Shown here one piece after another: positions 15,601-59,403 of a stretch of DNA of 59,403 bases. Position 1 is the stretch's first letter. Each line of letters begins with the position of its first letter. The notes under the pieces are model-generated. The model worked only from the letters and a program-made list of their open reading frames with translations. It did no database searches and was not told where the DNA came from. A program made the translations under genes and the position numbers. Source of the stretch: a virus; IMG/VR virus record IMGVR_UViG_3300032297_000320, positions 1-59,403 of that record. The stretch is one strand, 5' to 3'.

Positions 15601-17595
15601 GACTTCTGGCTCGACAACCGTGCGGCTACCCGCTCGAGGAGCTCCAACTGGGACTTCTTCGGTAACTTGTTCAGTTGTAGTAATTGTTTTGTTGTCATAG
15701 TACTCTAGTTCGTCAAATTTATCTTCTAGTGTTTGGATGTACGCCTGCTTTGCGTCTGCAGGAATGTCAGACTTGTCTATGTCCTCAATAAGCTGAAGGA
15801 TGCGCTCCTGCGCTGCCTCAGCGTCTGATTGTTCTACCTCATCTCCTCGCTCTACAGCTTGGAGTGTGGCATCCATACCAATGGACTCAAGTATTAGTTT
15901 TTCACGTGCTTGAAGTACTCGATCTGCTGGAGTCGCTTCTTTGCCTGCTCCTTCGATAGGTTGGGCTTCGATAGCGGCTTCCCCTTCTGCGATAGGACTT
16001 GGTATCCCTGTTTCTTTTTGACTATCATACTCGTAGACTTTAATGTTGGGGTCGTACTTAGATTCAATCTTTGTCTTCTCGGAGTAAATTTGTTTTACTT
16101 TCTCCTGAAGCGCATCTTTTGATTGCTCATTCTTGAGTTCTGGATAAATCAACTGAGCCATAGAAAGCTCTTGATTCAATGAAATAACATTGTTGCGATC
16201 TTCTTCACTGAACTCCTCGTAAAAAGATGCAAGATTATTTTCTACCTGCTTAAGTTCTGCAAGTTTATTGATGATTTGACCCTTAACTACAGCCTTTTCT
16301 GATGCGCTAGTATTGGGGTCTTGGTGAACATCATACAAATCATTTATCTCTTCTGAGATATTACGACGCTTGTTAATGTTATTTGCTGTTCCTATTGCAC
16401 TAGGCCCCTTTGATAAAAGAGTAATTGGAGAACCAATTGCAGAGCCAAGAATGAATGCGTCCGCCATCCCATAGACGTTACTCTTGGAAAACATATCTTC
16501 TCCAAAAACGAGTGCATCCATAGCATTGCTAGAAATCTCAACAGCAAGCTCTTCGAGACCCTCTTGAAAACCTTCGGTTGCTACATCTTTGCCTACTTGC
16601 TTAGCGGCTTGAAGTGTTGGGCGAGTTGATTTAGCAATATCAGACACTAACCCTTTACGGAACCCACCGCGGATCAAGTCATCAACGCTAGTGCGGAACA
16701 TAAGCTCAGATGCAATCTCACCAGTGCCCTTGTATGTGGCAACAGCTAAATTAGTAACTGCATCAATAAAGTCATCCTCAGGATTCTTTTCAGCAGCATC
16801 AAGATACGCTTGACCAGCTGACGACATACCGAGAGGGACCATAGGCGCTACATCCTCAGCAATCTTTTTAACCAACTTTGTACGTGGCGCAAGTATAGAA
16901 CCAGTTCTTAGTCCTGCAGCGGTTGCTCCTTCAGCAGCCATCGTAGCACGACCAATAGCTCCCATAGCATACATCTGAGGTATTTGACGACCAGCCTCAA
17001 ACGCAATAAGTTTAGCTCCAATTAAAGGGTTCTCTTGAAATGTTTCTACGATACCCTTTCCAATTGTTTCCTCTCCAACATATTCCGACTGAAGTCGTTC
17101 TTTTTCTTGGTTTAGTGGCTCAAGAAGTTTTGCTGAGTTTGAGGAAAAGTAGTTTGTGTTGTTACCAAGAAGTAATGTCTCTACAGCTCTGTTCAAAAAC
17201 GTGTTTGCAGAAACAACACCTTCGGCAATAGATTGACCAACGTATGAGCCAATGTCGGCAAACTTTTGTGCTTGTGCAGCACGCTGTTCTTCAATTACTT
17301 GCTGTCGAGTTTTTTGTGGCTCTTTATCCTTAGTTCCTTCAAACTTGGGAACTTCACCGAAAGGAGCAGGGACTTCAGCTAATGTAGCCGAAGCAGAAAG
17401 TTCTTCCGAAAAGAGTGAATCGGATGCCTCGGAAGATTCTTTTTTTTTTACGTCAAGATTTACCTGATCAGCATACACTGGGTACTTTTCAACCATCTTA
17501 CCAACCAATAGCGAGTCGTCAACGTCAGCATATTGTGGATACTTTGACTTTACCTTAGCCGCAAATTCAGCTACTGATAACTTAGGTTCTGGCAT
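9655..17595 (-). CDS. Giant polyvalent virion protein (metallopeptidase motif, LPD38-like C terminus)
   Basis: A 2646-residue protein, the largest in the window. The N terminus (KLSVAEFAAKVKSKYPQYAD) is a short module common at the start of phage large polyvalent proteins. Residues 919-923 read HEVFH, a zinc-peptidase HExxH motif. A Pro/Val/Ala/Glu repeat (PVAEPVAEPVAEP) lies near 810. An XRE-like helix-turn-helix (about 1795-1850: SITDLRKKNNLKPSEAAQLA... TYRELEAG) is embedded in the chain. The C-terminal ~400 residues (SLYLFFNASVQGTSRLVRSL) resemble large-polyvalent-protein domain 38. Such proteins are packaged in the capsid and ejected with DNA. It lies among the internal virion protein genes; its exact enzymatic role is unknown. 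Confidence 0.75.
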   Translation of the reverse strand: MPEPKLSVAEFAAKVKSKYPQYADVDDSLLVGKMVEKYPVYADQVNLDVKKKESSEASDSLFSEELSASATLAEVPAPFGEVPKFEGTKDKEPQKTRQQVIEEQRAAQAQKFADIGSYVGQSIAEGVVSANTFLNRAVETLLLGNNTNYFSSNSAKLLEPLNQEKERLQSEYVGEETIGKGIVETFQENPLIGAKLIAFEAGRQIPQMYAMGAIGRATMAAEGATAAGLRTGSILAPRTKLVKKIAEDVAPMVPLGMSSAGQAYLDAAEKNPEDDFIDAVTNLAVATYKGTGEIASELMFRTSVDDLIRGGFRKGLVSDIAKSTRPTLQAAKQVGKDVATEGFQEGLEELAVEISSNAMDALVFGEDMFSKSNVYGMADAFILGSAIGSPITLLSKGPSAIGTANNINKRRNISEEINDLYDVHQDPNTSASEKAVVKGQIINKLAELKQVENNLASFYEEFSEEDRNNVISLNQELSMAQLIYPELKNEQSKDALQEKVKQIYSEKTKIESKYDPNIKVYEYDSQKETGIPSPIAEGEAAIEAQPIEGAGKEATPADRVLQAREKLILESIGMDATLQAVERGDEVEQSDAEAAQERILQLIEDIDKSDIPADAKQAYIQTLEDKFDELEYYDNKTITTTEQVTEEVPVGAPRAGSRTVVEPEVRRGKFRLFERLNNLEVAVGTETDGQTSVIETQEDGSIDVVTYDKATKQEVGRQARVADNILGLEYVESIFDADGNLTGVVMRPKTPKGQDISSVRISVINRPELAMDIAIDARKKQIGDVPEVIWLQEYETITREVTTKEKVPAKERPVAEPVAEPVAEPTTEEAEKQPAAEKETPKGIVSKDQATAAVSMAKKLLARLGLKTKVVVHNSREEFDAAMNEVSASGASDAARDGGRFIPSRNEIHINLEDMLLSDPFHEVFHAAFVSRFSKGNQQTREKVASEFKDGILRVLRTGSAQDKQLADEVEQFVNDGEYTAKESPEEFIAQTAGMIALSGNRISKSTMDKLIQWLNNFIGKISPALKLNTRGEFIDFMNSFSGALFDSSIDDQTYTGLESEATTSIPSVSESSSRQGKDDSYVNRTFNKEKIQFADLSEYVGKPAITYAMDLAVTGTVKSPTGVTYTFDGGVFYPLLGEGGWAFTDEKTAKKILSKLKKFDGRVLLMSQDSRGIRGNFQFWGYMLEEVNKAVKDKRATEAELVEYINSKLKKKPIESALEEKGLPLQIKKLSELKNLMPNDGPKKVGYEVRAEFNEALFSAEANKRFGLPRIETILDYVNEPLLANAQYGDIVAVLEFDPKKMEVKDSRTIEGAKIHPAYPWIITGFKDLKILNEFVDVRNVFGDYRSKMAEEKGDPELKKRIKIRAARAVVTGGASANNLEINNNIVKSIVGIAPYRAKYVNEISEARDEYKKPSFERFVKGFRDIAKKFDVQVYGIEKTIGGWYDSELNSVTQEVSMRPAIAGNKEDILAMSAVAGIMAPVKKEDFQNGVMLVEYKSGAEGSEVTFNANSDASAKQIINALNDYGFGGGFTYVVSEKSFSLAMIPSEETSMDQLRDNLDNLLTFAQENNLIDEKSIKYYEAEIKFPNSDRESEDYYGRILQEARDSKRYEGDGREGALKLLNQALEILDERNNALDSELSESSSRRANKPYDELLDSSSKEKVQLGFQASQINYDIEDQLADSKSWQQRDRTPMERYTDLARIAIQDRLYGVIQLQEDVEYSTSKPVGLDQDFRNAEILMHGKAANDIAESTKKAEDVVANVKKAGVTLEEFDDLLYALHAQERNRYIRVQRTDIAESITDLRKKNNLKPSEAAQLAGIDPETYRELEAGTAKGGISTKELNDILSIYGLTPNQFFTQYTRENAGSGMTDAEAQAILNSYGLDSYNPNINSLKPALRDAVKGTQEIIADTRSRMFDFGLETFDTLLAFEDTYKYYVPLRGFEGEDSASEIIGGGRGLEVRGREKRAMGRKSKADSPFLNAVAQNQSTIIRARKNEVAQKLYKLAKENPNDDIWKVIDPSVNKEYKKKATTKGIKDVAKTISDYVLDDRNFAVRIDGEYKFVQFADPKLAEALRGANVVKADFLVKSLGRFNRLLSSFITTYDPEFVLRNFSRDIQVAVVNAVSEQEIEGGLLKGKNITSKIVKSVFPSIKAIFKMSGKDAQATNEFERYYSEFIEDGAKTEWFYSKSVDELRKDVDKLMSGKGDGALQAAGNFVERINTSVENGVRLAAYIESRKAGLAREKAAELAKGLTVNFNKSGSIGPVANSLYLFFNASVQGTSRLVRSLKPQFKKNDDGTRSLQVTNAQKIAISMFVAGSIMSIINELISDDDEDDKSFYSKIPDFEKERNIIIMAPNGKDYIKIPLPYGLNVFYVAGNAMADAGQGIKSVGEVASNIFEAAIGSFSPINFPSSEDLSSWLIKFVTPTIGQIPLSLALNEDYFGRTIYNENFPTDPTPKPESELGRKGATPQSVWIAKQLNKLTGGSEFRSGIVDINPDKIDFVIETLSGGAGRFGLRTTESVSNVVTGNWDQMESNQVPFARVFYGQPRKFVDLQSYFDRRIEVNQFMDEAKANKLEPKDASKVRSMYVVSKSVDKALRNIRKMEKAAENIKDENTKEDRLLELERMRYAQLAKFQKAYENYKINEL

Positions 17596-50146: not shown

Positions 50147-50544
50147 TACTTCATCATCTTGAAGTCGACACCAGTGATCTTTCCGTCCATATTCTTGTCA
50201 AGCTTAACCTGACTGCCCTTTAGGTACTTCATCATTCCACCTTTTCCGTATTTAGGCATCTTACCGCCCTTTTCGTAGTATCCGTCAACGTTCATCTTGC
50301 CGCCACCCATCATCTTCTTGACGGGGCGCTTGACAACCTTGAAGCCCTTAGCCTTAAGCTCCTTGTCGAACTTAGCAAGCTCCTCAGGACCTTCAGCCTT
50401 CAATGCGTTACGCATCTCGGTAAGGTTCTCTGCCTCACGAGTGCGAGCAGCAGCGTTAAACTTCTGATCAGCTGGAGACATCTTCTTCTTAGGATCGATT
50501 GGCATCTTGCCACCCATCTGGTAAACGGTCATCTTTGGTTTCAT
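50146..50544 (-). CDS. Gly/Met/Lys-rich conserved protein with Ca-binding-like end
   Basis: A 132-residue basic protein. The Gly-Met-Lys repeats (GGKMPIDPKKKMSPADQKF, KKMMGGGKMNVDGYYEKGGK, MPKYGKGGMMKYLKG) are widespread in Bacteroidota phage proteins of unknown function. The C terminus LDKNMDGKITGVDFKMM has the D-x-[DN]-x-DG spacing of EF-hand/dockerin calcium loops. A -7 box ends 5 nt before its ATG. Confidence 0.6.
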   Translation of the reverse strand: MKPKMTVYQMGGKMPIDPKKKMSPADQKFNAAARTREAENLTEMRNALKAEGPEELAKFDKELKAKGFKVVKRPVKKMMGGGKMNVDGYYEKGGKMPKYGKGGMMKYLKGSQVKLDKNMDGKITGVDFKMMK

Positions 50545-50549
50545 AAGTG

Positions 50550-50557
50550 CAAAGTTA
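50550..50557 (-). promoter_or_regulatory. Late -7 element TAACTTTG, 5 nt from ATG
   Basis: TAACTTTG on the - strand ends 5 nt before the ATG at 50544, just after the endolysin stop. Confidence 0.5.
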
Positions 50558-50558
50558 T

Positions 50559-51023
50559 CTATTTAAACGCTACGTATTTTGTCTTGCCACCCTCACGAAC
50601 AGCCTTCAAGATCTGCTTACGATTGGCACCCTTGCGGTATCCTACGTGTACCCAGTCAGGATTCTTGTCTGTCCCAAACTCCCATATCAATTGATCGAAG
50701 TCAAGGTTAGACTTGATGTAGTTAAACACATCAGCATTCGTTACACCATTGCCGTGACCGTCTTGATCCAAGTCAAGAGCCTTTCCAAGGTTATGGTCCG
50801 AAGTAGAGCTACCACCAATAGCCTTGTTCAAGGCAGCAGAGCGGTATCCGCTAGAGATAAAGATAGGAACACCAAAGTACTCACGTACCTTGTCGAACAC
50901 CTCCTCCGAAATAACCTTAAGGTTCTCCAGATGTTCTGCTGTTGGACTATTATCAATCCCCTTGCGCTTGGCAGTATCACTCCGTGTTACCTCAGCCAAC
51001 GATACGTACTTACTTAACTTCAT
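50559..51023 (-). CDS. Peptidase M15 endolysin
   Basis: A 154-residue zinc peptidase of the M15 (D-Ala-D-Ala carboxypeptidase/L-Ala-D-Glu endopeptidase) family, which cleaves cell-wall cross-links. The SxHxxGxAxD motif is present as STSDHNLGKALD (His77, Asp84) and the third zinc ligand in DWVHVGY (His126). An Arg-containing ISSGYRSAALN precedes it, as in family members. It has no signal peptide, so it needs the holin. It is the first gene of the late block next to the control region, and its ATG is 4 nt from a TATCTTTG box. Confidence 0.9.
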   Translation of the reverse strand: MKLSKYVSLAEVTRSDTAKRKGIDNSPTAEHLENLKVISEEVFDKVREYFGVPIFISSGYRSAALNKAIGGSSTSDHNLGKALDLDQDGHGNGVTNADVFNYIKSNLDFDQLIWEFGTDKNPDWVHVGYRKGANRKQILKAVREGGKTKYVAFK

Positions 51024-51027
51024 ACGG

Positions 51028-51035
51028 CAAAGATA
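51028..51035 (-). promoter_or_regulatory. Late -7 element TATCTTTG, 4 nt from ATG
   Basis: TATCTTTG on the - strand ends 4 nt before the endolysin ATG. Immediately upstream is an inverted repeat AACAGC-AATAATA-GCTGTT (51038-51056), a possible operator. Confidence 0.55.
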
Positions 51036-51037
51036 GT

Positions 51038-51056
51038 AACAGCAATAATAGCTGTT
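51038..51056. promoter_or_regulatory. Inverted repeat AACAGC-N7-GCTGTT
   Basis: A 6-bp perfect inverted repeat just upstream of the first late -7 box. The same half-sites (AACAGCAAT/ATTGCTGTT) flank the -33 box of the ERF promoter at 57063-57101, and an AACAGC/GCTGTT pair occurs at 51373-51392. Confidence 0.4.
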
Positions 51057-51083
51057 TTATGGACCCATAAGAAAAATAAACTC

Positions 51084-51098
51084 CTACTAATTTAGTAG
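51084..51098. promoter_or_regulatory. 15-bp palindrome CTACTAA-T-TTAGTAG
   Basis: Perfect 7-bp arms around a single T, in AT-rich DNA between the divergent late and early promoters. A dimeric repressor site is plausible. Confidence 0.4.
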
Positions 51099-51146
51099 AT
51101 ATTTATATAACTATCTGAAAGACACACCAATAAACTAACATCTACC

Positions 51147-51179
51147 ACTTGACTTTCTCGTTTTTCTTTTGTAACTTCG
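51147..51179 (+). promoter_or_regulatory. Early promoter, ACTTG-N20-TAACTTCG
   Basis: ACTTG at 51147-51151 and TAACTTCG at 51172-51179, 20 nt apart. Its transcript would start near 51185, run through the structured segment, and could read into the early operon. Confidence 0.65.
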
Positions 51180-51183
51180 CTAA

Positions 51184-51425
51184 GGCTAGAGCCGATAGAC
51201 AGAACGCAGACTAACTAAGCTCTCTTATCATCGAGAGCCTACTTAGCCTACCAAACAAAGAAGGGGCGGCGCCTCAGCAGAGCCCCCACCCCACCGCCGA
51301 GAGCAAACAAAGCTCAAGCTCCTAAGATCCGCTCAGCTACCCATAATACAGGCGTACTATACCCCAACCATAGCTGTTCAAATCATAACAGCAAATCAGT
51401 TGGCTCTAATAGTTTTTTCTTTTTA
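51184..51425 (+). ncRNA. Candidate structured non-coding RNA
   Basis: About 240 nt without a credible ORF between an early promoter and a T-rich run (ttttttcttttt, 51413-51424). Several hairpins are visible: CTCTC/GAGAG near 51220-51237 nested in AGGCTA/TAGCCT, GGGGC/GCCCC and GGCGG/CCGCC between about 51263 and 51300, GAGC/GCTC near 51302-51316, and GCTGTT/AACAGC at 51373-51392. The segment is C/G-rich against AT-rich flanks. It matches no RNA family I can name. Confidence 0.45.
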
Positions 51426-51439
51426 TTACAGCCAACTTG

Positions 51440-51530
51440 TATCTAGGGACCACAAATAAGTATCTAGGGTTACAAATAAGTACCTAGGGTTAGATATAAG
51501 TATCTAGTGGTGCAAATAAGTACCTAGGGG
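51440..51530. repeat. Iterons: five ~20-bp tandem repeats (AAATAAGTAYCTAGGG)
   Basis: The core TATCTAG/TACCTAG begins at 51440, 51461, 51481, 51501 and 51521: spacing 21, 20, 20, 20 nt, close to two helical turns. Each is preceded by AAATAAG or a close variant. Regular iterons in a non-coding divergent region are typical of replication origins or cooperative binding sites. Confidence 0.7.
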
Positions 51531-51549
51531 ATTATATACATAATCGATC

Positions 51550-51838
51550 GTTCGCGCGCGCGTACGGAAACCGATTCCCAGACGTATGGGGTTGCGTTTG
51601 ACAGCATTTCGTTCGTAGGTTTCAGCGTTTTGCCCACGTGACTCTCGTGATGAACTGACTGATTTTGCTGAGGGTTTTGACTTGAGTTCCTAGGGAAAAA
51701 GGAGGAACAATCCCCCCCCTACTTCACCCCTTTCTGCCCACTATCTCCCACCCCTACCCACGTGCTATGCGCACTTGTGCACGTGCTCACGTGTGTGCGT
51801 TACGCGTGTGTGTGCGCGCATTATGCGCGTGCGCGAGC
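51550..51838. other. Low-complexity control region: polypyrimidine and alternating Pu-Py tracts
   Basis: After the iterons come CGCGCGCGCG (about 51554-51562), a C-rich polypyrimidine tract with a run of eight C (51709-51758), and an alternating purine-pyrimidine tract (51759-51838) containing several CACGTG, GTGTGTGTGCGCGC and the palindrome CGCGCAT-T-ATGCGCG. Such DNA can form triplex or Z-DNA/cruciform structures. TTATCCATC at about 51860 resembles a DnaA box (7 of 9). No gene is seen. Confidence 0.5.
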
Positions 51839-51970
51839 CAAAGGAATTCGGTTAGCTTTATCCATCATTTTGAGCAATGGATGTATAGTTTCGTTCAATT
51901 TGCGGTTTGCCTATTGTGGGTTCGTTTCGGCTAACTACATTCGCAGTGTTAAACCATTAAAACAATTGCT

Positions 51971-52285
51971 ATGACTCCTTCATCACTTTACAACACCCCC
52001 TCACTCGGAGACTTCATTAAGAGCACCTACGGCGAGATACCTTCGGTCGAGGTTTTGACTGAGCAGGTAGAGAACAACGTACGCCGCCTTGCTGAACTTG
52101 AGTCACGTGTTCCGAACTTCCTTAAGGAGAAAGAATTCGCCTTCGTTGACTTGCGTCGTGAGGTTATCACCTTGCAAGATATTGAGGACTACGAGTACGA
52201 CACTGCTGATGTGAACTACCACTGCAAACGTGCGAACGAACTGCTCACTAAGGTTGAGCAACGTGCGACTAAGTTAGGCTACTAA
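51971..52285 (+). CDS. First early protein, hypothetical
   Basis: A 104-residue helical protein (VEVLTEQVENNVRRLAELES, NYHCKRANELLTKVEQRATK) with an acidic middle. No family recognised. The start follows the leader TTAAACCATTAAAACAATTG, which resembles the leaders after the two hammerhead cleavage sites. First gene right of the origin-like region. Confidence 0.65.
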   Translation: MTPSSLYNTPSLGDFIKSTYGEIPSVEVLTEQVENNVRRLAELESRVPNFLKEKEFAFVDLRREVITLQDIEDYEYDTADVNYHCKRANELLTKVEQRATKLGY

Positions 52286-52316
52286 AAATTTGAAAAACCG
52301 AAAAAACTGTTCTGCT

Positions 52317-52511
52317 ATGAAAACTAAAAAATCAAACCTATACTCATTCTTTGTCTTAATCGGAGGCGGAGTAGTTCACAAGGAGGTATACCGCCGTGAG
52401 ACTAAGTGTCCTAGTCGCACTAAGGAGTACAAGGTAGTTCGGTGTATGTTCGAGAACTTCAGTGGTGCTGAGGTGCCCATCGTGGGCTACGGATACGAAA
52501 TCGTTAAATAA
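52317..52511 (+). CDS. Small hypothetical early protein
   Basis: A 64-residue basic beta-rich protein (KKSNLYSFFVLIGGGVVHKE, RTKEYKVVRCMFENFSG). ATG 52317 is preferred over one at 52290 because it follows the A-rich CTGTTCTGCT leader style of neighbours. Function unknown. Confidence 0.6.
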   Translation: MKTKKSNLYSFFVLIGGGVVHKEVYRRETKCPSRTKEYKVVRCMFENFSGAEVPIVGYGYEIVK

Positions 52512-52529
52512 GTTAAAACTTTCTATGCT

Positions 52530-52727
52530 ATGAAAGTGCATACGTATTCCTTTGGGGGCCTTAAAATTAGGGTTTGCTACCATCGTGATGCCGAGGGTGC
52601 GCTGAAGTGGGCTGTGAGTTCTCCTGAGTTCGATGTGTGTGAATATACTGACGAACTATGGGCAACGAAGGGTGAGGCAATCGAGGCGGGTGTGTATGCC
52701 GCAAAGAGGTTAACTGAGGAGTCCTAG
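52530..52727 (+). CDS. Small hypothetical early protein ending inside a ribozyme
   Basis: A 65-residue protein (MKVHTYSFGGLKIRVCYHRD, ...EFDVCEYTDELWATKGEAIE) of unknown function. Its last six codons form stem I and the core of hammerhead 1, and the TAG stop lies in the stem II loop. Ribosomes reaching the stop would unfold the ribozyme, so translation and self-cleavage may compete. Confidence 0.65.
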   Translation: MKVHTYSFGGLKIRVCYHRDAEGALKWAVSSPEFDVCEYTDELWATKGEAIEAGVYAAKRLTEES

Positions 52728-52757
52728 GTGGACGAAACGTCGCGAGACGTCTTAACC
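52708..52757 (+). ncRNA. Hammerhead ribozyme 1 (type I)
   Basis: All core elements are present. Stem I GGTTAA (52708-52713) pairs with TTAACC (52752-52757). Core CTGAGGA at 52714-52720. Stem II GTCC-TAGGT-GGAC (52721-52733). GAA(A) at 52734-52737. Stem III ACGTC-GCGA-GACGT (52737-52750), with a GNRA loop. Cleavage triplet GTC, with the expected cut between 52751 and 52752. The open stem is stem I (type I). Cleavage would give the downstream gene a 5' end 23 nt before its ATG. Confidence 0.93.
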
Positions 52758-52774
52758 ATAAAACAATCAAAACA

Positions 52775-53017
52775 ATGACTATTAAGGACTATTATCTGAA
52801 AAACTTTTCAACTGATGAATTAGGTTTGGAACTTAATTGCAAACCAACATTTGCAGGTCTTTTGCACCAACTTCTTATTGGTAAATGTGTTTACGAATAC
52901 ATTGGTGTATACGATTCAATTGTGCGAGAAATGTTATTTGAGGAACTTGCAAGAGAGATAGAAACACCTTATAAGTTTGTTTACGACCTATGGTTAAACA
53001 ATAGTGAAAAAGGTTAA
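52775..53017 (+). CDS. AT-rich small protein between two hammerhead ribozymes
   Basis: An 80-residue protein (MTIKDYYLKNFSTDELGLEL, ...CVYEYIGVYDSIVREMLFEE). I do not recognise a family; it is acidic and probably helical. Its codons are clearly more A/T-rich than those of neighbouring early genes, suggesting separate acquisition. The TAA stop lies in stem I of hammerhead 2. Together the two ribozymes would release an RNA of 308 nt (52752-53059) carrying only this gene. Confidence 0.65.
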   Translation: MTIKDYYLKNFSTDELGLELNCKPTFAGLLHQLLIGKCVYEYIGVYDSIVREMLFEELAREIETPYKFVYDLWLNNSEKG

Positions 53018-53065
53018 CTGATGAGGACTAAATGTCCGAAACAAGGAGCAATCCTTGTCTTAACC
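53012..53065 (+). ncRNA. Hammerhead ribozyme 2 (type I)
   Basis: Stem I GGTTAA (53012-53017) with TTAACC (53060-53065). Core CTGATGA at 53018-53024. Stem II GGAC-TAAAT-GTCC (53025-53037). GAA(A) at 53038-53041. Stem III ACAAGGA-GCAA-TCCTTGT (53041-53058), with a GCAA tetraloop. Cleavage triplet GTC with the cut between 53059 and 53060. Stems II and III differ from ribozyme 1 in sequence yet keep pairing, which is internal covariation evidence. Confidence 0.95.
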
Positions 53066-53082
53066 ATAAAACAATCGAAACT

Positions 53083-53286
53083 ATGAACACTTCAATTGAA
53101 AGCATCGTTGCATACGAGAGCGGAGAGCTCACTGATCAGGAGGTCGTGTACTTCTTTGCCGAACTTGTGAAGAGCGGTCTAGCCTGGAATCTTCAGGGTC
53201 ACTACGGACGGACTGCGAGTGCGCTAATTGACCACGGACTAATTGACGAGCAAGGAAACGTTTCTCTTGCTGTTCTAGAACTTTAA
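53083..53286 (+). CDS. Conserved small phage protein (YESGEL... LQGHYGR)
   Basis: A 67-residue protein: SIESIVAYESGELTDQEVVY, AELVKSGLAWNLQGHYGRTA, ALIDHGLIDEQGNV. The 'GLAWNLQGHYGRTA..LI..GLI' pattern occurs in many phages and is uncharacterised. The start at 53083 is 23 nt after the ribozyme 2 cut; an in-frame ATG at 53032 lies within the ribozyme itself and is rejected. Confidence 0.75.
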   Translation: MNTSIESIVAYESGELTDQEVVYFFAELVKSGLAWNLQGHYGRTASALIDHGLIDEQGNVSLAVLEL

Positions 53287-53309
53287 TAACCGCCAACGAA
53301 ATCTAACTT

Positions 53310-53519
53310 ATGAAAACTTATCAATTCATCGTGACTGTGAGCAACAGCACCATCGTCGAGGTTCAATCTGAAAACTACGAGGAGGCCGTCGGACTTGCGC
53401 TGAAGGAGTTCCACGAGAGTGAGGTCATCCACGATCTATGCGACCCACGCTCTATGGGTGTTGACATTGAGCTCGAAGAGGAGTTTGATGGTGAGGTACC
53501 AGAAATGTATCCACTTTGA
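53310..53519 (+). CDS. Small acidic early protein
   Basis: A 69-residue protein (KTYQFIVTVSNSTIVEVQSE, NYEEAVGLALKEFHESEVIH) with a beta-strand start, one helix, and an acidic end (VDIELEEEFDGEVPEMYPL). It resembles small ferredoxin-like phage proteins of unknown function. Confidence 0.65.
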   Translation: MKTYQFIVTVSNSTIVEVQSENYEEAVGLALKEFHESEVIHDLCDPRSMGVDIELEEEFDGEVPEMYPL

Positions 53520-53532
53520 CCGAAAATGTGTT

Positions 53533-53562
53533 TTGCCGAACAAACAATTCTTTTAACCTTTG
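53533..53562 (+). promoter_or_regulatory. Possible promoter TTG-N19-AACCTTTG
   Basis: TTG at 53533-53535 and AACCTTTG at 53555-53562; the -7 box has one mismatch to TAnnTTTG. The 17-nt block around it (AATTCTTTTAACCTTTG) is repeated exactly upstream of 54130. Confidence 0.45.
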
Positions 53563-53587
53563 ACTAACCAACGAAATAATTAAAACT

Positions 53588-53743
53588 ATGAAACAATTAG
53601 AATCAGGAGCGGCATCGCTCAAGGTGGAACTGCACAAGGGGGTGATTAGTGTCTACCACGGAACGGACGGCACTTTGCTGTTCACCCGCCCTGCCTTCGA
53701 GGGAGACTGGGGCAAACTTTTTAATCAACTTAAAAACAACTAA
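53588..53743 (+). CDS. Small early protein
   Basis: A 51-residue protein (MKQLESGAASLKVELHKGVI, VYHGTDGTLLFTRPAFEGDW) with an alternating beta pattern. No family recognised; it is supported by the A-rich leader and its fit with the next gene (ATG 7 nt after the stop). Confidence 0.6.
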   Translation: MKQLESGAASLKVELHKGVISVYHGTDGTLLFTRPAFEGDWGKLFNQLKNN

Positions 53744-53749
53744 GAAACT

Positions 53750-54064
53750 ATGGAACGCTTTAACAAATATCAATTCACTGCCGACCTAGAGGCAGAACTT
53801 CTAGAGGCTGTAAACAACGACCAAATCAGTGAGCTCGAAGAGGTCTTCGACTGGATGCATCAATCAATCGAGAACGCTGTGATCTATGCGGCGGACTGCT
53901 TCGAAATCATTCGGGAACTTCACTTCACGAACTTCAAGGACAGCGACTTTGAGATTACTGACATCTACCAGGCCGCTTATGCCGCCTTGTACGAGTACGC
54001 CAACGAAAACATTGACCTAAGTGATGTCGAGGAAGCGATTAAAAACAAGATAGAAAATGACTGA
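53750..54064 (+). CDS. Acidic helical early protein
   Basis: A 104-residue acidic protein (KYQFTADLEAELLEAVNNDQ, ...DLSDVEEAIKNKIEND). Entirely helical in appearance with many Glu/Asp; DNA mimicry cannot be excluded but there is no direct evidence. Unknown function. Confidence 0.65.
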   Translation: MERFNKYQFTADLEAELLEAVNNDQISELEEVFDWMHQSIENAVIYAADCFEIIRELHFTNFKDSDFEITDIYQAAYAALYEYANENIDLSDVEEAIKNKIEND

Positions 54065-54072
54065 AAATGGGT

Positions 54073-54103
54073 TTGTCTATCTAAGTAATTCTTTTAACCT
54101 TTG
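54073..54103 (+). promoter_or_regulatory. Possible promoter TTG-N20-AACCTTTG
   Basis: TTTG ending at 54075 and AACCTTTG at 54096-54103, spacing 20 nt. It is a near copy of the 53533-53562 site, including the following ACCAAC(A/G)AAA leader. Confidence 0.45.
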
Positions 54104-54129
54104 AAAAACCAACAAAACAATTAAACACA

Positions 54130-54513
54130 ATGAAAAACACAATGAGCCTTTTAGAAGCCGTAGAATTCCTGGTAGGACTTCAGGACGGTGAGAACGACCA
54201 ACTTGCTCAGGCAATAGATGTAGTCGTTGGCGGACTTAAGTTTGGCCACGAGGAATTCAATCAAGTAGAACTATCTTCCTTAGCCTGGACCGCAGAAGAC
54301 TTTGATAACCACGTTGAAGGGTTGTACGACCTAGGAAAGATTGACGAGTCAACAGCAAAGAAGCTTATGGCCTATCGTGAGTCTGAAAAGCTAGGTATTG
54401 TTTCGAACGCAATCGAAGATATCGAGGACTCAATTATGGAGAAAATAAATGACAGCATTTTCTTACGTGTTCGTATAGAAGCTAACCAAGTAAAAAATCA
54501 AAGCAATGCCTAA
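54130..54513 (+). CDS. Acidic early protein
   Basis: A 127-residue acidic, helical protein (MSLLEAVEFLVGLQDGENDQ, GLYDLGKIDESTAKKLMAYR). Two ATG codons (54130 and 54142) are possible starts. The stop overlaps the next gene by 8 nt. Unknown function. Confidence 0.65.
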   Translation: MKNTMSLLEAVEFLVGLQDGENDQLAQAIDVVVGGLKFGHEEFNQVELSSLAWTAEDFDNHVEGLYDLGKIDESTAKKLMAYRESEKLGIVSNAIEDIEDSIMEKINDSIFLRVRIEANQVKNQSNA

Positions 54514-55054
54514 TTGGATGAGAACAGCCCTTGAAGTATCAGGCGATCAGAAACTACAGCAAGAATTCTTTGCCGCAATCGGCAACGGAATCGGGTCAGA
54601 ACAGCCAATCGATTTCGAGAAGCTAATACCACCACCTGCGAATATCTTCAGGGGTAACTTAGGAGATACCGAGAGAGTGTACTGCGAGGAGAACAACATA
54701 CCGAATTGGTACGACTGGAACCGCGAGAACTGGGGGACCAAGTGGAACGCGGCCTACGGAGAGCTTCGGCCCTCGAAGCAAGGGGACAGCACTGTGCTGT
54801 TCTTTGACACCGCGTGGAGCTTGCCTATGCCTGTCCTCGAGAAGATTGAGGAGATGCTGATGAATGAGTTCCTTGGCCTTGAAATCTACGGAGAGTTCAT
54901 TGAGGAGGGCTACGCAGTTGCGGGAGTTATCCTGATGGGCAAGGACGGCGGAGATATCCGGGAGATAGACATCGACTTCGACCAAGAGTCAGACCAACCA
55001 AAGATTAATTTCTTTGATCAGGACGGAACAGAATTTAAATTTAAAAACCTTTAA
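54506..55054 (+). CDS. DUF1281/YubB-like ferredoxin-fold protein
   Basis: A 182-residue protein. MPNWMRTALEVSGDQKLQQE, then IPNWYDWNRENWGTKWNAAY and STVLFFDTAWSLPMPVLEKI match the YubB/DUF1281 pattern (CxN.L.v.G....., W...NWGTKWna). That family is common on plasmids and phages and has an api/YubB ferredoxin-like domain of unknown function. The C-terminal acidic part (IREIDIDFDQESDQPK) is less conserved. Confidence 0.75.
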   Translation: MPNWMRTALEVSGDQKLQQEFFAAIGNGIGSEQPIDFEKLIPPPANIFRGNLGDTERVYCEENNIPNWYDWNRENWGTKWNAAYGELRPSKQGDSTVLFFDTAWSLPMPVLEKIEEMLMNEFLGLEIYGEFIEEGYAVAGVILMGKDGGDIREIDIDFDQESDQPKINFFDQDGTEFKFKNL

Positions 55055-55057
55055 GCA

Positions 55058-55252
55058 ATGAAATCTTTCTTCGGACAAATCTTCACTCCACTGCGCCAAC
55101 CAAAGGTGTGCATTGAGTACGCAAACGGTGTGTTCATCCTGGTTGATGAGTCGGACCAAAGCTTGGGCTACGAGTTCAAGAACTTTAACGAGGCGTTTCG
55201 CTTCGCTAAGACAATGGGCTACGAGTTCAGTGATAACGACTATTTCGTCTGA
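55058..55252 (+). CDS. Small early protein
   Basis: A 64-residue protein (MKSFFGQIFTPLRQPKVCIE, ...FKNFNEAFRFAKTMGYEFSD). The ending 'NEAFRFAKTMGYEFSD' resembles the end of the following 49-residue protein ('EDEAFNYAKQLESIKQ'), suggesting a tandem duplication of a small module. Unknown function. Confidence 0.6.
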   Translation: MKSFFGQIFTPLRQPKVCIEYANGVFILVDESDQSLGYEFKNFNEAFRFAKTMGYEFSDNDYFV

Positions 55253-55253
55253 T

Positions 55254-55403
55254 ATGCCGTTCATCGTTTCGTATAACCCAGACAGCGAGACCTTTGATGT
55301 ACTTCAGAAGAGTCCGTTCCGACTGGTCCGATCCTTCACATACGAGGACGAAGCCTTCAACTACGCCAAGCAATTAGAATCTATTAAACAGCAAAAGAAA
55401 TGA
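55254..55403 (+). CDS. Small early protein, paralogue of preceding gene
   Basis: A 49-residue protein (MPFIVSYNPDSETFDVLQKS, PFRLVRSFTYEDEAFNYAKQ). The start codon is one base after the upstream TGA. The beta-then-helix layout (..FxxxDEAFxxAKxL) matches the 55058-55252 product. Confidence 0.6.
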   Translation: MPFIVSYNPDSETFDVLQKSPFRLVRSFTYEDEAFNYAKQLESIKQQKK

Positions 55404-56005
55404 AAGACTACAGCGACAACCCAATCGATATCCGACTTCAGAACTGTACTGAGTGCGGACAAGAGTTCGATCAGGACAACGACTACTACGAGTACAACGC
55501 CAAGGATGAAATCATCTGCAGTGACTGCTACTCTTCTCACTGGGATAGTGCGGTGAGCGTATACGAATACGACCCTGAGTACGAGAACCTTAGCCGCATT
55601 GAGTACTCCTATACTCTAGAAAAGCACCGAGACTACGAGAACTACGACCCGTACGACGGCCCACCTCAGTGCATCAAGAAAGCCGAATGGAAGCGAATAG
55701 ACGGATGGAGAGGATACGTTGATGTAGAGATTGCCGATGGCTTCACCTGCGTTGCCGAAGGATGGTCTACCGATATGTACGATGATGTCAAGTGGAAGTG
55801 GGACTTCAACGAGTTTGTTGACAAAGTACACTCAGGAGAACTTGTACCGCCAGTCGAGACATTCTTCATCTTCGCTCAGACGAGCAACGTATTTTCTACT
55901 GCCGCACAGCTTGTGGTACGTACGCACCAAGAGAACACATTCCTGAACTGGTTGGCTGATCAGGCAGGGCTTACTAAAGAACAACTTCAAAACGCACTAC
56001 GATGA
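55400..56005 (+). CDS. Zinc-ribbon hypothetical protein
   Basis: A 201-residue acidic/aromatic protein with an N-terminal CTECG (residues 16-20) and CSDCY (about 40-44), a CxxC-x20-CxxC zinc ribbon. The middle is Tyr/Asp-rich (RDYENYDPYDGPPQ), followed by a beta-rich part (GYVDVEIADGFTCVAEGW) and a helical end. Unknown function; it may bind nucleic acid or a host protein. It overlaps its neighbours by 4 nt. Confidence 0.6.
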   Translation: MKDYSDNPIDIRLQNCTECGQEFDQDNDYYEYNAKDEIICSDCYSSHWDSAVSVYEYDPEYENLSRIEYSYTLEKHRDYENYDPYDGPPQCIKKAEWKRIDGWRGYVDVEIADGFTCVAEGWSTDMYDDVKWKWDFNEFVDKVHSGELVPPVETFFIFAQTSNVFSTAAQLVVRTHQENTFLNWLADQAGLTKEQLQNALR

Positions 56006-56208
56006 AAAACGGAATCTACATTGAACTAACTGAGTCGCTATCTTGGTCAGTTGACAACGACAACTATATGCTAACAGCAATGTTTTCGAGCTCGGAGGGG
56101 GACACAGTCATTGACTTCCCCCTTCACGAAGACTTCCTTGACTTTGCTTTGGCTTATGTCGAACAATACAAGAGACACATCAACAACAAAATCAACAATG
56201 AGTTATGA
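56002..56208 (+). CDS. Small early protein
   Basis: A 68-residue protein (MKNGIYIELTESLSWSVDND, ...FPLHEDFLDFALAYVEQYKR), beta then helix, of unknown function. It overlaps the next ATG as ATGA at 56205-56208. Confidence 0.6.
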   Translation: MKNGIYIELTESLSWSVDNDNYMLTAMFSSSEGDTVIDFPLHEDFLDFALAYVEQYKRHINNKINNEL

Positions 56209-56342
56209 ATCGCAAGAAAACAAACGAGGAGTTCGGTGAGGTCTTTGACCTACTTGTTGAAAAAGCTATGTCGTTTCTGCAGGTGATTATTTTCGCTAAC
56301 ATTGTAGTGTTAATAGTGGCGCAGATACTCAAAGCATTATAA
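56205..56342 (+). CDS. Small single-span membrane protein
   Basis: A 45-residue protein with a charged N terminus (MNRKKTNEEFGEVFDLLVEK) and one C-terminal membrane span (SFLQVIIFANIVVLIVAQIL). Translationally coupled to the previous gene. An early membrane peptide could act in superinfection exclusion or host inhibition, but this is only suggestion. Confidence 0.6.
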   Translation: MNRKKTNEEFGEVFDLLVEKAMSFLQVIIFANIVVLIVAQILKAL

Positions 56343-56344
56343 TT

Positions 56345-56659
56345 ATGAAGATGACCTACGAATCATTCACCTCAACAACCTTCCGCATAAAGTTCTGCAT
56401 TGGCTCAGAGCGTGCGGAGGTAACGATCGAACCACTTGTCGATGACGAGTGGGTTACCACCTACGTGGGAAACGAGTGCTACGATGTTAACCTTTGGCTG
56501 GATGATAACGTAGGCAAGGATCAGGAAGGGCTTGTGCGCTTTGGTGTGTACCACGTCAAGCCCGACCCTGACAACTCCCCAGATGGGATGTGGATTACCG
56601 ACAGCAAGGTGGTCTGCAGTAGCGACTGTCCGGGATCTCAGATTGATATTTGCTGTTAA
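56345..56659 (+). CDS. Cys-containing early protein
   Basis: A 104-residue beta-rich protein (STTFRIKFCIGSERAEVTIE, ...VYHVKPDPDNSPDGMWITD) with clustered Cys at the C terminus (VVCSSDCPGSQIDICC). No family recognised. Confidence 0.6.
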   Translation: MKMTYESFTSTTFRIKFCIGSERAEVTIEPLVDDEWVTTYVGNECYDVNLWLDDNVGKDQEGLVRFGVYHVKPDPDNSPDGMWITDSKVVCSSDCPGSQIDICC

Positions 56660-56686
56660 TAACTTTATTTTTAATTCAACCAAAAA

Positions 56687-56719
56687 ACTTGCAAGTCTCG
56701 AGAACGAGCGCTAACTTCG
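56687..56719 (+). promoter_or_regulatory. Early promoter, ACTTG-N20-TAACTTCG
   Basis: ACTTG at 56687-56691 and TAACTTCG at 56712-56719, 20 nt apart, identical in both boxes to the promoter at 51147-51179. It precedes the short gene at 56749. Confidence 0.65.
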
Positions 56720-56748
56720 CTTAGCTCAAGAGCGCAAGAGAAACCAAA

Positions 56749-56889
56749 ATGATAACTATGAGCGAGCACTTTCAGTCACTAGTAGAGTTCTACGTGCTAC
56801 GGATTAGCGCGATGGAGGCGGCCCTCAAAGCCGCCGAGTCAGAGCGCGATGCCCTGCTAGAACAGCTTATGGAGCGTAAGGCTTCCTGA
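56749..56889 (+). CDS. Small coiled-coil protein
   Basis: A 46-residue helical protein (MITMSEHFQSLVEFYVLRIS then AMEAALKAAESERDALLEQL) with an amphipathic, coiled-coil-like C-terminal half. An alternative ATG lies at 56758. Short, but well placed behind a promoter. Confidence 0.5.
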   Translation: MITMSEHFQSLVEFYVLRISAMEAALKAAESERDALLEQLMERKAS

Positions 56890-56950
56890 CGCTACGTTAC
56901 CGAGCGCAATCCAGGCGCACTATGTCCAACCCGAAACAACCAATGAAACA

Positions 56951-57073
56951 ATGAGAGAACAGTTTATGAGGATAGCTATGGCTAGATTACGTGCCGACTA
57001 TCCGTTCCGACTACAACGTATTGCTGTTGCCGCGAAGATGTGGAGCAGGTATGTTGAAAGAAAACAGCAATAA
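56951..57073 (+). CDS. Tiny basic protein
   Basis: A 40-residue Arg-rich peptide (MREQFMRIAMARLRADYPFR, LQRIAVAAKMWSRYVERKQQ). It follows the leader AACCAATGAAACA and ends inside the next promoter. Supported by context and lack of alternatives. Confidence 0.45.
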   Translation: MREQFMRIAMARLRADYPFRLQRIAVAAKMWSRYVERKQQ

Positions 57074-57101
57074 ATACTTGCATATCAGCAAGATTGCTGT
57101 T
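57063..57101. promoter_or_regulatory. Inverted repeat AACAGCAAT...ATTGCTGTT around ERF promoter
   Basis: Perfect 9-bp arms (57063-57071 and 57093-57101) flank the -33 box and touch the -7 box of the promoter at 57076-57108; arm centres are 30 bp apart (about three turns). The same half-site occurs beside the late promoter at 51038. Confidence 0.45.
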
Positions 57102-57108
57102 ATATTTG
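57076..57108 (+). promoter_or_regulatory. Early promoter, ACTTG-N20-TATATTTG
   Basis: ACTTG at 57076-57080 and TATATTTG at 57101-57108, 20 nt apart. The ERF-family ATG follows 22 nt downstream. Best consensus match of the five early sites. Confidence 0.75.
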
Positions 57109-57130
57109 TCCAACAATTCAATTCACTACA

Positions 57131-57733
57131 ATGAAAGAACAAACGTTCCAACAGCGACTGATTAATGTTCAGTCGCGACTGAAGGCTCACAAGTCTCAGT
57201 ACAATTCGTTTGGTAAGTACTCTTACCGCAACCAAGAGGATATCCTCGAGGCAGTCAAGCCTCTGCTCGCAGAGAACGGACTGACTATGACCATCTCAGA
57301 TGAAATCCTTGGCGATGCATTTGCTAACTCGATGTTGATTATCAAAGCTGTTGTTACCATCAGCGACGGAGAGAACAGCATTGCGGCTTCCGCTTGTGCA
57401 GGTATTGATCCGAACCGCAAGGGTATGGACATCGCCCAATCATTCGGTGCCTCTTCTTCGTATGCTCGTAAGTATGCGCTGAATGGTTTGCTGTTGATTG
57501 ACGATACCAAAGATGCTGATGCTACAAATACTCACGGCAAGGACGCTCCGGCTTCGATGCCTACGGCGAAGCCAGCGTCCGTTGCCCCACCAAAGGACGA
57601 TATGTTTCAGAAGGCTGTTGACCGAATGAAAGAGGTCGGGACGAAAGCCAAGTATGATGAGATTATTGCAGCTATCGGGACCCAGTTGTCTGAGGCACAG
57701 CGTAACGCGCTGAGCAAATTCATCAAGAAGTAA
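57131..57733 (+). CDS. erf: ERF-family single-strand annealing protein
   Basis: A 200-residue recombinase of the ERF superfamily, which anneals complementary single strands and supports recombination-dependent replication. Diagnostic segments: FGKYSYRNQEDILEAVKPLL near the N terminus and the conserved AQSFGASSSYARKYALNGLL followed by DDTKDAD. A Pro/Ala-rich linker and a small helical C-terminal part (DRMKEVGTKAKYDEIIAAIG) follow. It is paired with a RecE-like exonuclease through a one-base overlap, the usual two-component recombination system. Confidence 0.9.
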   Translation: MKEQTFQQRLINVQSRLKAHKSQYNSFGKYSYRNQEDILEAVKPLLAENGLTMTISDEILGDAFANSMLIIKAVVTISDGENSIAASACAGIDPNRKGMDIAQSFGASSSYARKYALNGLLLIDDTKDADATNTHGKDAPASMPTAKPASVAPPKDDMFQKAVDRMKEVGTKAKYDEIIAAIGTQLSEAQRNALSKFIKK

Positions 57734-58521
57734 TGAGTGAGATTGTCTTACTTGACGGCACGTCGTGGGAGTTGCCCACGCTGTTGGATGCAATGATGGA
57801 TGATGACTTCTACTATGGGTACCTAGGTAGCGCTTCACTATCATCTTCTTCTGACAAGTTGCTGAACGCAAGCCCGAAGGAGTACGCAAAGTCTTTGCGT
57901 GGCCATCAGCTTGAAACGTCTGCGCTTTCCGTAGGTAAACTAATTCACACGGCAGTCCTTGAACCAGAGAAGGTCGATAGCCTTTTCGTTACTGTTGACG
58001 TATCCACGAAGTCTACCAAGGCTTACAAGGAAGCAAAGCAACAGCTAAGCAAAGGACAGACACTACTTACAGCAAACGAGTACGACTCAGCAATGTATGT
58101 TGTTGACGCACTATTACGCAACGAAATAGTAAAGAATATGCTCAAGGGTGCAGAGTTCGAGAAACCTGCAATTGGTCACGTCGAGGGACTGCCTCACCGA
58201 GCCAAGGCTGATATCCTACACCCAGGTGTTGCAGTTTACGATTTGAAGACAACTTCAGAGATTTCTGGATTTAACTACAGCGCACGAAAGTATGGTTATC
58301 CCGCTCAAGTGTACATCTACTGCACGCTGTTTGGAATTGGCTACGAGAACTTTAAGTTCATCGCAGTCGATAAAGGTAGCAAGGACATCGGGGTCTTCTC
58401 CGTCTCCGAATCCTTCTACCTCGAGGGTAAGCGCCTAGTTGAGAATGCTGTTCGTATTTATACGGACTACTTCATCAACGGCGAAGATCTCGACACTTAC
58501 ATCATTTACGGAGAACTTTAA
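57733..58521 (+). CDS. RecE-like PD-(D/E)XK exonuclease (DUF3799-like)
   Basis: A 262-residue nuclease. GKLIHTAVLEP (about 68-78) carries the family His, HRAKADIL and VYDLKTT provide the D...D-x-K catalytic core, and YPAQVYIYCTLFG the Q-x-x-x-Y motif. This arrangement is that of PD-(D/E)XK exodeoxyribonuclease VIII-like proteins, which resect DNA ends to give the 3' tails used by the ERF annealing protein. Confidence 0.88.
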   Translation: MSEIVLLDGTSWELPTLLDAMMDDDFYYGYLGSASLSSSSDKLLNASPKEYAKSLRGHQLETSALSVGKLIHTAVLEPEKVDSLFVTVDVSTKSTKAYKEAKQQLSKGQTLLTANEYDSAMYVVDALLRNEIVKNMLKGAEFEKPAIGHVEGLPHRAKADILHPGVAVYDLKTTSEISGFNYSARKYGYPAQVYIYCTLFGIGYENFKFIAVDKGSKDIGVFSVSESFYLEGKRLVENAVRIYTDYFINGEDLDTYIIYGEL

Positions 58522-58531
58522 TTCTAATTTT

Positions 58532-58813
58532 ATGTCAGAGAAGAGTAAAATCAATTACTTCGGTAGCGCATATCACAATGACTACCAAGGTCAATTCACT
58601 GGATACTCATTGGTTGTTTCACTCACTCAACTTGAGGACGCAAAAGCATTTGCTGGTCCTGATGGTCGTGTGAAAATCACCATCCGTCCAGGTAAACAAG
58701 ATCCTACGAAGCCATACGCTTCTATTGCTCCGCACACGCCAAAGCAAGATGGTCAGTCACAGAATGCTCAGTACAGCAAGCCTCAGGCTCAGAAAAGCGA
58801 TCTGCCGTTCTAA
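58532..58813 (+). CDS. Candidate ssDNA-binding protein with DLPF tail
   Basis: A 93-residue protein. The N-terminal ~60 residues are beta-rich (INYFGSAYHNDYQGQFTGYS, VKITIRPGKQDP), followed by a Gln/Ser/Pro-rich disordered linker and a C terminus ending KSDLPF, similar to the acidic/hydrophobic tip (DDIPF/DLPF) through which SSB proteins recruit partners. Lying next to ERF and exonuclease genes, an SSB role is attractive but the OB-fold is not certain. ATG 58532 is used. Confidence 0.5.
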   Translation: MSEKSKINYFGSAYHNDYQGQFTGYSLVVSLTQLEDAKAFAGPDGRVKITIRPGKQDPTKPYASIAPHTPKQDGQSQNAQYSKPQAQKSDLPF

Positions 58814-59184
58814 TGTTTGAGACCTCGATTGCATACCTGCTATCGATGGAGTGGGGGAGGGAGATTTCATCTCCCCCTACCTCCTCCTTCTCAGTGAAGA
58901 GCGACAGCGGACCAGATGTTACGTTCCTGATTACACAAGCCAAGCTTGTAGGGTCCGACATCAAGTTTGTTCCGTTCTCCACACGACAAGAGTTTGTTGT
59001 TCTGTTTATTTGGGGCAAAGACGGAGACAACTGCGTTACTATACCAACAGCTAAAGTTCAAGACGAGCTACCAACTGGCGTAATCAGCGCGAAGAAGGTC
59101 GCCGAATCACTAATCCACAAGATCCGCATCAATGCCTCGTCCGATTTTCTACCTTCAGGTACTGATATCCTACACAAAGGGTAA
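58813..59184 (+). CDS. Hypothetical protein of recombination operon
   Basis: A 123-residue beta-rich protein (SDSGPDVTFLITQAKLVGSD, FVVLFIWGKDGDNCVTIPTA) with no recognised domain. It shares one base with the SSB-like gene and overlaps the next by 53 nt, so it belongs to the same transcript. Confidence 0.6.
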   Translation: MFETSIAYLLSMEWGREISSPPTSSFSVKSDSGPDVTFLITQAKLVGSDIKFVPFSTRQEFVVLFIWGKDGDNCVTIPTAKVQDELPTGVISAKKVAESLIHKIRINASSDFLPSGTDILHKG

Positions 59185-59374
59185 GCAGAAGTTTAAGAAG
59201 GAGGAATGGGTTGTCACCAAGTACGAAACCGCAAGGGAGATAATGGTGAATGATGTTAAGACTATGGACAGCCTGAGAGACCGCATCTACGGATCGAACT
59301 ACAAGGGAGAGAAGACCATCGTAATTGTAAAGATTAACTCAAGCAAAATCGTAGGCTATGAAAGCAGACAATAA
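59132..59374 (+). CDS. Small basic hypothetical protein
   Basis: An 80-residue protein (RPIFYLQVLISYTKGKQKFK, ...GSNYKGEKTIVIVKINSSKI). The 5' 53 nt overlap the previous gene in another frame. Unknown function. Confidence 0.55.
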   Translation: MPRPIFYLQVLISYTKGKQKFKKEEWVVTKYETAREIMVNDVKTMDSLRDRIYGSNYKGEKTIVIVKINSSKIVGYESRQ

Positions 59375-59403
59375 GGAAGCAGGAAGCGATATGAAGTTCC
59401 TGT
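59358..59403 (+). CDS. Partial CDS at window end
   Basis: ATG at 59358 opens a frame (MKADNKEAGSDMKFL...) that runs off the window end and overlaps the previous gene by 17 nt. Too short to identify. Confidence 0.4.
   Translation, partial: MKADNKEAGSDMKFL

Follow-up and report, generated by a model that had tools for sequence, protein, structure and literature searches.

What purpose could two predicted self-cleaving RNA motifs serve between the small genes of a virus? The window analyzed here spans an entire virus record (59,403 bases); its genes include a portal, a large terminase, an ERF annealing protein and exonuclease VIII, and it also encodes a ribonucleotide reductase and a primase/helicase with a BT4734-like domain. 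Because the terminase is 38-47% identical to those of an uncultured podovirus, a Maribacter phage and Elemovirus phages of Flavobacterium, the sequence places the host probably within the Bacteroidota. No direct DNA similarity to deposited phages was found for positions 50500-59403, and BLAST with the first motif, HHR1, returned chance matches only. The region is presumably an early operon, a label drawn from gene size and from the neighboring ERF and exonuclease genes. Its relevant features, all on the plus strand, are as follows.

52530-52727, +: small gene 5' of HHR1, 65 aa, without a family match
52708-52757, +: HHR1, type I hammerhead (direct reading, core-plus-stems scan, family covariance model)
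52751/52752, +: predicted HHR1 cleavage site, GUC^UUAACC (sequence reading, scan, hammerhead chemistry)
52752-52774, +: HHR1 leader, 23 nt, A-rich, predicted to be unstructured after cleavage
52775-53017, +: gene between the ribozymes, 80 aa, no family match
52989-52997, +: TATGGTTAA, within coding sequence, predicted competitor of HHR2 folding
53012-53065, +: HHR2, type I hammerhead (direct reading, core-plus-stems scan, family covariance model)
53059/53060, +: predicted HHR2 cleavage site, GUC^UUAACC (sequence reading, scan)
53060-53082, +: HHR2 leader, 23 nt, A-rich, predicted to be mostly unstructured after cleavage
53083-53286, +: gene 3' of HHR2, 67 aa, DUF7417 / phrog_3908
57131-58521, +: genes for an ERF-like ssDNA-annealing protein and exonuclease VIII, same gene block

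Direct reading gives the layout GGTTAA CTGAGGA GTCC-TAGGT-GGAC GAA A-CGTC-GCGA-GACG-T C^TTAACC for HHR1 and GGTTAA CTGATGA GGAC-TAAAT-GTCC GAA A-CAAGGA-GCAA-TCCTTG-T C^TTAACC for HHR2. At both sites, reading and scan find the invariant core (C3U4G5A6N7G8A9 and G12A13A14), and the A15.1-U16.1 pair and NUH triplet are present as A-U and GUC. Stems II and III are closed and stem I is open, with covariation, which defines both as type I. The two sites share stem I and the leader and differ in stems II and III, and the predicted cuts fall 23 nt before the ATG codons at 52775 (HHR1) and 53083 (HHR2). An earlier note on this DNA had described two type I hammerheads, both complete and on the same strand, that lie between small phage genes, and its account of the core, pairs, GUC, GNRA loops and 6-bp stem I is borne out; the sequence likewise agrees with the nearly identical 23-nt leaders and the cut positions that it predicted. 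Its further point, that stems II and III differ yet pair, can be read in both copies and is carried much further by the independent sequences described below. HHR1 and HHR2 were the only matches of the core-plus-stems scan on both strands of the window, and Markov-simulated sequence gave 0.07 matches per strand, none of equal quality. The minimum free energy (MFE) structure calculated with ViennaRNA contains the expected three-way junction for HHR1, and for both sites once full flanks are included. Hammerhead cleavage leaves a 2',3'-cyclic phosphate and a 5'-OH.

A covariance model built from relatives scores HHR1 at 62.5 bits (E = 2e-14) and HHR2 at 57.7 bits (E = 4e-13). An Rfam search of the window at the gathering score returned no match, and the same search found no hammerheads in 19 related loci rich in family members. 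The scoring run against RF00163 that the earlier note had proposed as a check did not reach the 34-bit gathering cut-off (HHR1, 22.6 bits; HHR2, not listed), and RF03152 (RAGATH-1, cut-off 56.3) gave 25.1 bits for HHR2 and 20.3 bits for HHR1. These two models, the best sub-threshold Rfam matches, have the same catalytic core and type I topology as the window sites; in the RAGATH-1 consensus, however, stem II is a single base pair and a hairpin lies upstream, whereas the window sites have a 4-bp stem II and do not need the hairpin. Since the family is missed by Rfam cut-offs, it is likely to be unannotated in public phage genomes.

When virus contigs were scanned for the exact stem I and core, with stems II and III left free, at least 120 stretches matched, as compared to none for a control scan with another stem I. 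A second virus-contig scan left stem I free and set the core and the stem II/loop; it yielded at least 118 distinct matches, and 114 of the 118 listed resolve as type I hammerheads, almost all with a 6-bp stem I of diverse sequence. A fixed GGTTAA stem I was therefore dropped as a rule. Merging the virus scans gave at least 365 distinct elements. Among the 365 listed, stem I is 6 bp long in 360 and its outer pair is G-C in 354, loop II is mostly TNANT on a short stem II, and at least 64 stem I sequences occur, with GGTTAA the commonest, though its share is inflated by the first scans, which had specified it. An A precedes stem I in 361 of these elements and follows it in 360, although neither A had been requested; in the window these are A52707 and A52758 around HHR1, and A53011 and A53066 around HHR2. 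The flanking A residues and the TNANT loop are conserved candidates for a tertiary contact between the stem I region and loop II. HHR1 and HHR2 thus apparently belong to a large, virus-specific and uncatalogued family.

Covariation was assessed in 239 matches from a search that imposed no pairing on stem II or stem III. Stem III is 96-100% paired (40-78% when shuffled) and pairs 2-4 of stem II are 85-96% paired (45-58% when shuffled), while the first pair of stem II is almost invariant. A separate pair-count alignment is more striking, but its rows were selected by pairing. In L105, L186, L225 and other pairs of loci, some closely related ribozymes keep stem III and the flanks while stem II is wholly different and still paired, which suggests that copies of the ribozyme have swapped segments at the conserved core.

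The position of the elements relative to genes was scored by two rules, with random same-strand positions in the same loci as control. An ATG lying 12-35 nt after the cut and opening a frame of at least 25 codons, or one open to the contig end, is found for 86% of the 365 elements listed (control, 15%). An upstream frame ending inside the ribozyme or within about 10 nt before it is found for 89% (control, 18%), and both together for 77% (control, 3%). The window follows the same pattern: the TAG stop of the upstream 65-aa gene (52725-52727) falls in loop II of HHR1, and the TAA stop of the 80-aa gene (53015-53017) is part of stem I of HHR2. Among the elements listed, leaders have a median length of 22 nt for the GGTTAA group and 25 nt for the others, and Shine-Dalgarno-like leaders were counted in 25 of 218 GGTTAA-group elements and 77 of 133 others; as both kinds occur, the element serves Shine-Dalgarno and non-Shine-Dalgarno leaders. 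Translation in Bacteroidota is compatible with A-rich leaders that lack a Shine-Dalgarno sequence (PMC6847099). All 72 listed loci with at least two copies carry every copy on one strand.

We consider it fairly likely (probability about 0.7) that HHR1 and HHR2 are type I hammerheads of a virus-specific family that act between cistrons as a "stop-cut-start" element. The gene on the 5' side would terminate inside the ribozyme or just ahead of it, and the RNA, once free of ribosomes, would fold and cut itself after GUC in infected cells, such that terminating ribosomes may gate the reaction. The 3' end of the upstream mRNA would retain the stem II and stem III hairpins as a cap, together with the 2',3'-cyclic phosphate, which may stabilize this product. 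The downstream gene would receive a short open leader with a 5'-OH and room for one initiating ribosome, and its expression would therefore become independent of the upstream message. A polycistronic mRNA would in this way be split into separately translatable pieces, and the phage would presumably benefit from the separate mRNA ends. RNase III sites in the early region of T7 are cut between early genes to give separate mRNAs with 3' hairpins; there the cut is made by a host protein, whereas here, as proposed, it would be made by the RNA itself. The stop-cut-start proposal is supported by structure and covariation, the conserved core, the use of one strand, the set spacing to stop and start codons, repeated occurrence across phage contigs and cultured phages, and scarcity in bacteria. 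By analogy, cleavage of relatives within the hammerhead class in vitro and in vivo (PMC3088659) supports it too. Against it, the predicted thermodynamic folding of HHR1 and HHR2 in longer transcripts is not clean, many related records lack the element, and the intergenic placement could partly reflect compact genomes.

Could the elements instead be inert or selfish repeats with no role for the phage? A family element is present in only 10 of 25 related records picked by the exonuclease gene (some of them fragments) and is therefore dispensable; this patchiness would suit such repeats, and what hammerheads do in phages and bacteria has itself been described as an open question (PMC6155905). However, the catalytic core and the pairing are kept while the stems diverge, the sense strand is always used, and the distance to the start codon is fixed in Shine-Dalgarno and non-Shine-Dalgarno leaders alike, and we regard inert repeats as very unlikely.

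The shared stem I of the window ribozymes raises another possibility, namely that both cuts free a monocistronic RNA in which UUAACC at the 5' end pairs with GGUUAA at the 3' end. The second ribozyme could then ligate this RNA into a circle, as happens with retrozymes and viroid-like RNAs. HHR1 and HHR2 have stem I and leader in common while their stems II and III differ, and across the family stem I is common to 12 of 51 within-locus pairs as compared to 2.5% between loci, with stems II and III hardly ever shared within a locus. But 39 of the 51 within-locus pairs of the stem-I-free set differ in stem I, and a matched stem I is therefore no general requirement. Perreault et al. looked for circles or spliced RNAs formed by tandem hammerheads of phages and found none (PMC3088659). 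Matching within a locus is above background yet absent from most pairs, and circular mRNA was set aside as highly improbable.

Folding in longer transcripts bears on whether translation might operate the ribozymes. TATGGTTAA, near the end of the 80-aa gene, is a perfect 9-bp complement of UUAACCAUA, which comprises the 3' stem I strand of HHR2 plus leader. With a 30-nt upstream flank, the TATGGTTAA helix is predicted to outcompete the HHR2 hammerhead and replace it in the MFE structure; the predicted probability of the exact hammerhead fold is then about 0.001-0.004, unless translation were to mask the decoy. For HHR1, at least 40 nt of downstream sequence brings a predicted competing pairing to AAGGACU in the next gene. 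A terminating ribosome that masks the ribozyme, or the TATGGTTAA decoy at HHR2, could make cutting report upstream translation. Such a switch would fit the finding that 89% of members listed have a stop codon within the ribozyme or abutting it, and among 356 members the HHR2 decoy is the longest complement of this kind. Yet decoy helices are not enriched across these 356 members, and the nearest homolog of the 80-aa gene, in the related locus L342, has no TATGGTTAA decoy. The decoy was accordingly rejected as a family-wide switch; as complements of this kind show no overall enrichment, it is probably accidental, though it could matter for HHR2. Overall, a translation-operated switch appears unlikely.

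Comparison with relatives brings in a further reading, in which the ribozymes bound exchangeable gene cassettes, their conserved ends providing homology for crossovers and their insulation letting a new gene work anywhere. The nearest relative, L123 (98% protein identity at the exonuclease), has a single ribozyme here, in which the HHR1 body is joined to the HHR2 leader and gene, and it is missing exactly the gene at 52775-53017 plus one ribozyme. That gene has a GC content of 32%, as compared to 41-51% for the other genes scored, and its homolog in L342, 78% identical, sits beside other ribozymes. One-unit differences like that between L123 and the window number 12, in 7 distinct places, and ribozyme bodies are mixed at many junctions. 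One-sided homology is commoner at ribozyme junctions, where homology downstream given homology upstream has a probability of 0.35 (ordinary junctions, 0.54), and the products of the ERF-like and exonuclease VIII genes in the same block are possible agents of homologous exchange.

Exact one-gene indels, however, are not clearly enriched, either per consecutive pair (7 of 107 ribozyme pairs and 75 of 1911 ordinary pairs) or per upstream-homologous pair (12 of 186 and 133 of 1832, respectively). As ordinary junctions show indels about as often, no recombination site is claimed, and a recombination hotspot was rejected even though the window and L123 differ by a clean indel of one unit. On average, genes led by a ribozyme fall just 1.8 points of GC short of the locus median, and a foreign origin by base composition, while it holds for 52775-53017, is weak in general. 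We therefore treat the cassette reading as tentative and rather doubtful. The small gene at 52290-52511 of the window is replaced by an unrelated one at L123:4704-4880, and in L342 a homolog of the latter adjoins the 52775-type gene, as though small genes were drawn from a common pool and reshuffled. A broader form of the stop-cut-start proposal is possible but rather doubtful: a portable self-cutting boundary, made of stop codon, ribozyme and minimal leader, may turn acquired small genes into insulated units in many phages, with cutting gated by upstream translation, and so act as a natural counterpart of RiboJ that aids gene turnover.

The family is rare in bacterial genomes. Only four matching stretches were found in a scan of 84,980 bacterial and archaeal species genomes, and with a broader model under strict filters, 395 Bacteroidia genomes yielded one match, which was the seed, and 398 genomes of a second phylum yielded three, its seed included. 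Among cultured phages, the Elemovirus phages of Flavobacterium have one member each, with a TAG stop that adjoins stem I and an ATG 28 nt past the predicted cut; in MT497069.1 cleavage would leave an end at 16403 on the minus strand, ahead of phanotate41. The deposited Elemovirus annotation covers the ribozyme with a small opposite-strand ORF (L356:1884-1991, +; L357:1581-1688, +). Pelagibacter phages HTVC019P, HTVC131P and Jormungand also have one member each, upstream of MarR and integrase genes, and these depart from the rule of a close downstream ATG. The phages with a member that can be grown in culture, namely Elemovirus on Flavobacterium sp. BAL314 and the Pelagibacter phages, are ready systems, and the single stop/start geometry of a large family makes the separation of mRNAs a directly testable hypothesis; the interest of the family lies in bringing the role of phage hammerheads within reach of experiment in cultured phages.

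The earlier note had stated that it knew of no case of two same-strand hammerhead copies serving as spacers between small early genes, but clusters of phage hammerheads, and the idea that they cut mRNA, date from 2011, and the novelty claim therefore fails. The note also passed over the stop codons within both ribozymes, the family that this geometry defines, the single gene-plus-ribozyme unit absent from L123 and the 9-bp helix that competes with HHR2. Perreault et al. reported that in prophages, clusters of hammerheads flank individual genes or short runs of genes; three tandem sets cleave in vitro and one in vivo, in E. coli (PMC3088659). Their clusters resemble the present family in having same-strand copies around single genes or short blocks, an arrangement of at least two copies flanking phage genes that is found here in the window and in the 72 multi-copy loci, and in the proposal that phage transcripts are cut. 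Their set spans types I-III in mixed contexts, whereas the family described here has one narrow type I architecture, is fixed between stop and start codons, occurs mostly on virus contigs and falls below Rfam cut-offs; some of its sequences may be included in their dataset. The hammerhead HHphage of haloviruses HF1/HF2 lies 13 nt upstream of the ATG of an early helicase gene, and a mapped 5' end is consistent with its cleavage (PMC3088659). Unlike the window elements, it is a structural variant in an archaeal virus, with a single copy before the helicase. Synthetic insulators of the RiboJ type (PMC7536230) use a 5' UTR hammerhead to remove upstream sequence and give a uniform leader, as proposed here; RiboJ is engineered and has an added 23-nt hairpin, whereas the window elements are natural, lie between operon genes and have a leader with no added hairpin. 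A description of the family was not found in the literature searched, coverage of which was incomplete, and as judged against that literature the narrow architecture, the fixed stop-to-start placement, the scale and the invisibility at Rfam cut-offs appear to be new.

Other RNA motifs were noted in these loci. A type III hammerhead candidate with a 6-bp stem I hairpin lies just upstream of an ATG in the Elemovirus genome MT497069.1 (L356:3692-3748, -) and also occurs in L357; the L356 candidate scores 36.3 bits with RF00008, below the cut-off of 48.5, with E 7e-5. A type-P3 twister ribozyme above the Rfam cut-off is present at L004:174-241 (+), and a family hammerhead follows about 370 nt downstream on the same virus contig. 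In the window itself, TTTTAACCTTTGA occurs as an exact repeat at 53551-53563 and 54092-54104 (+), in two intergenic stretches; both copies lie 25-40 nt ahead of start codons and may be promoters.
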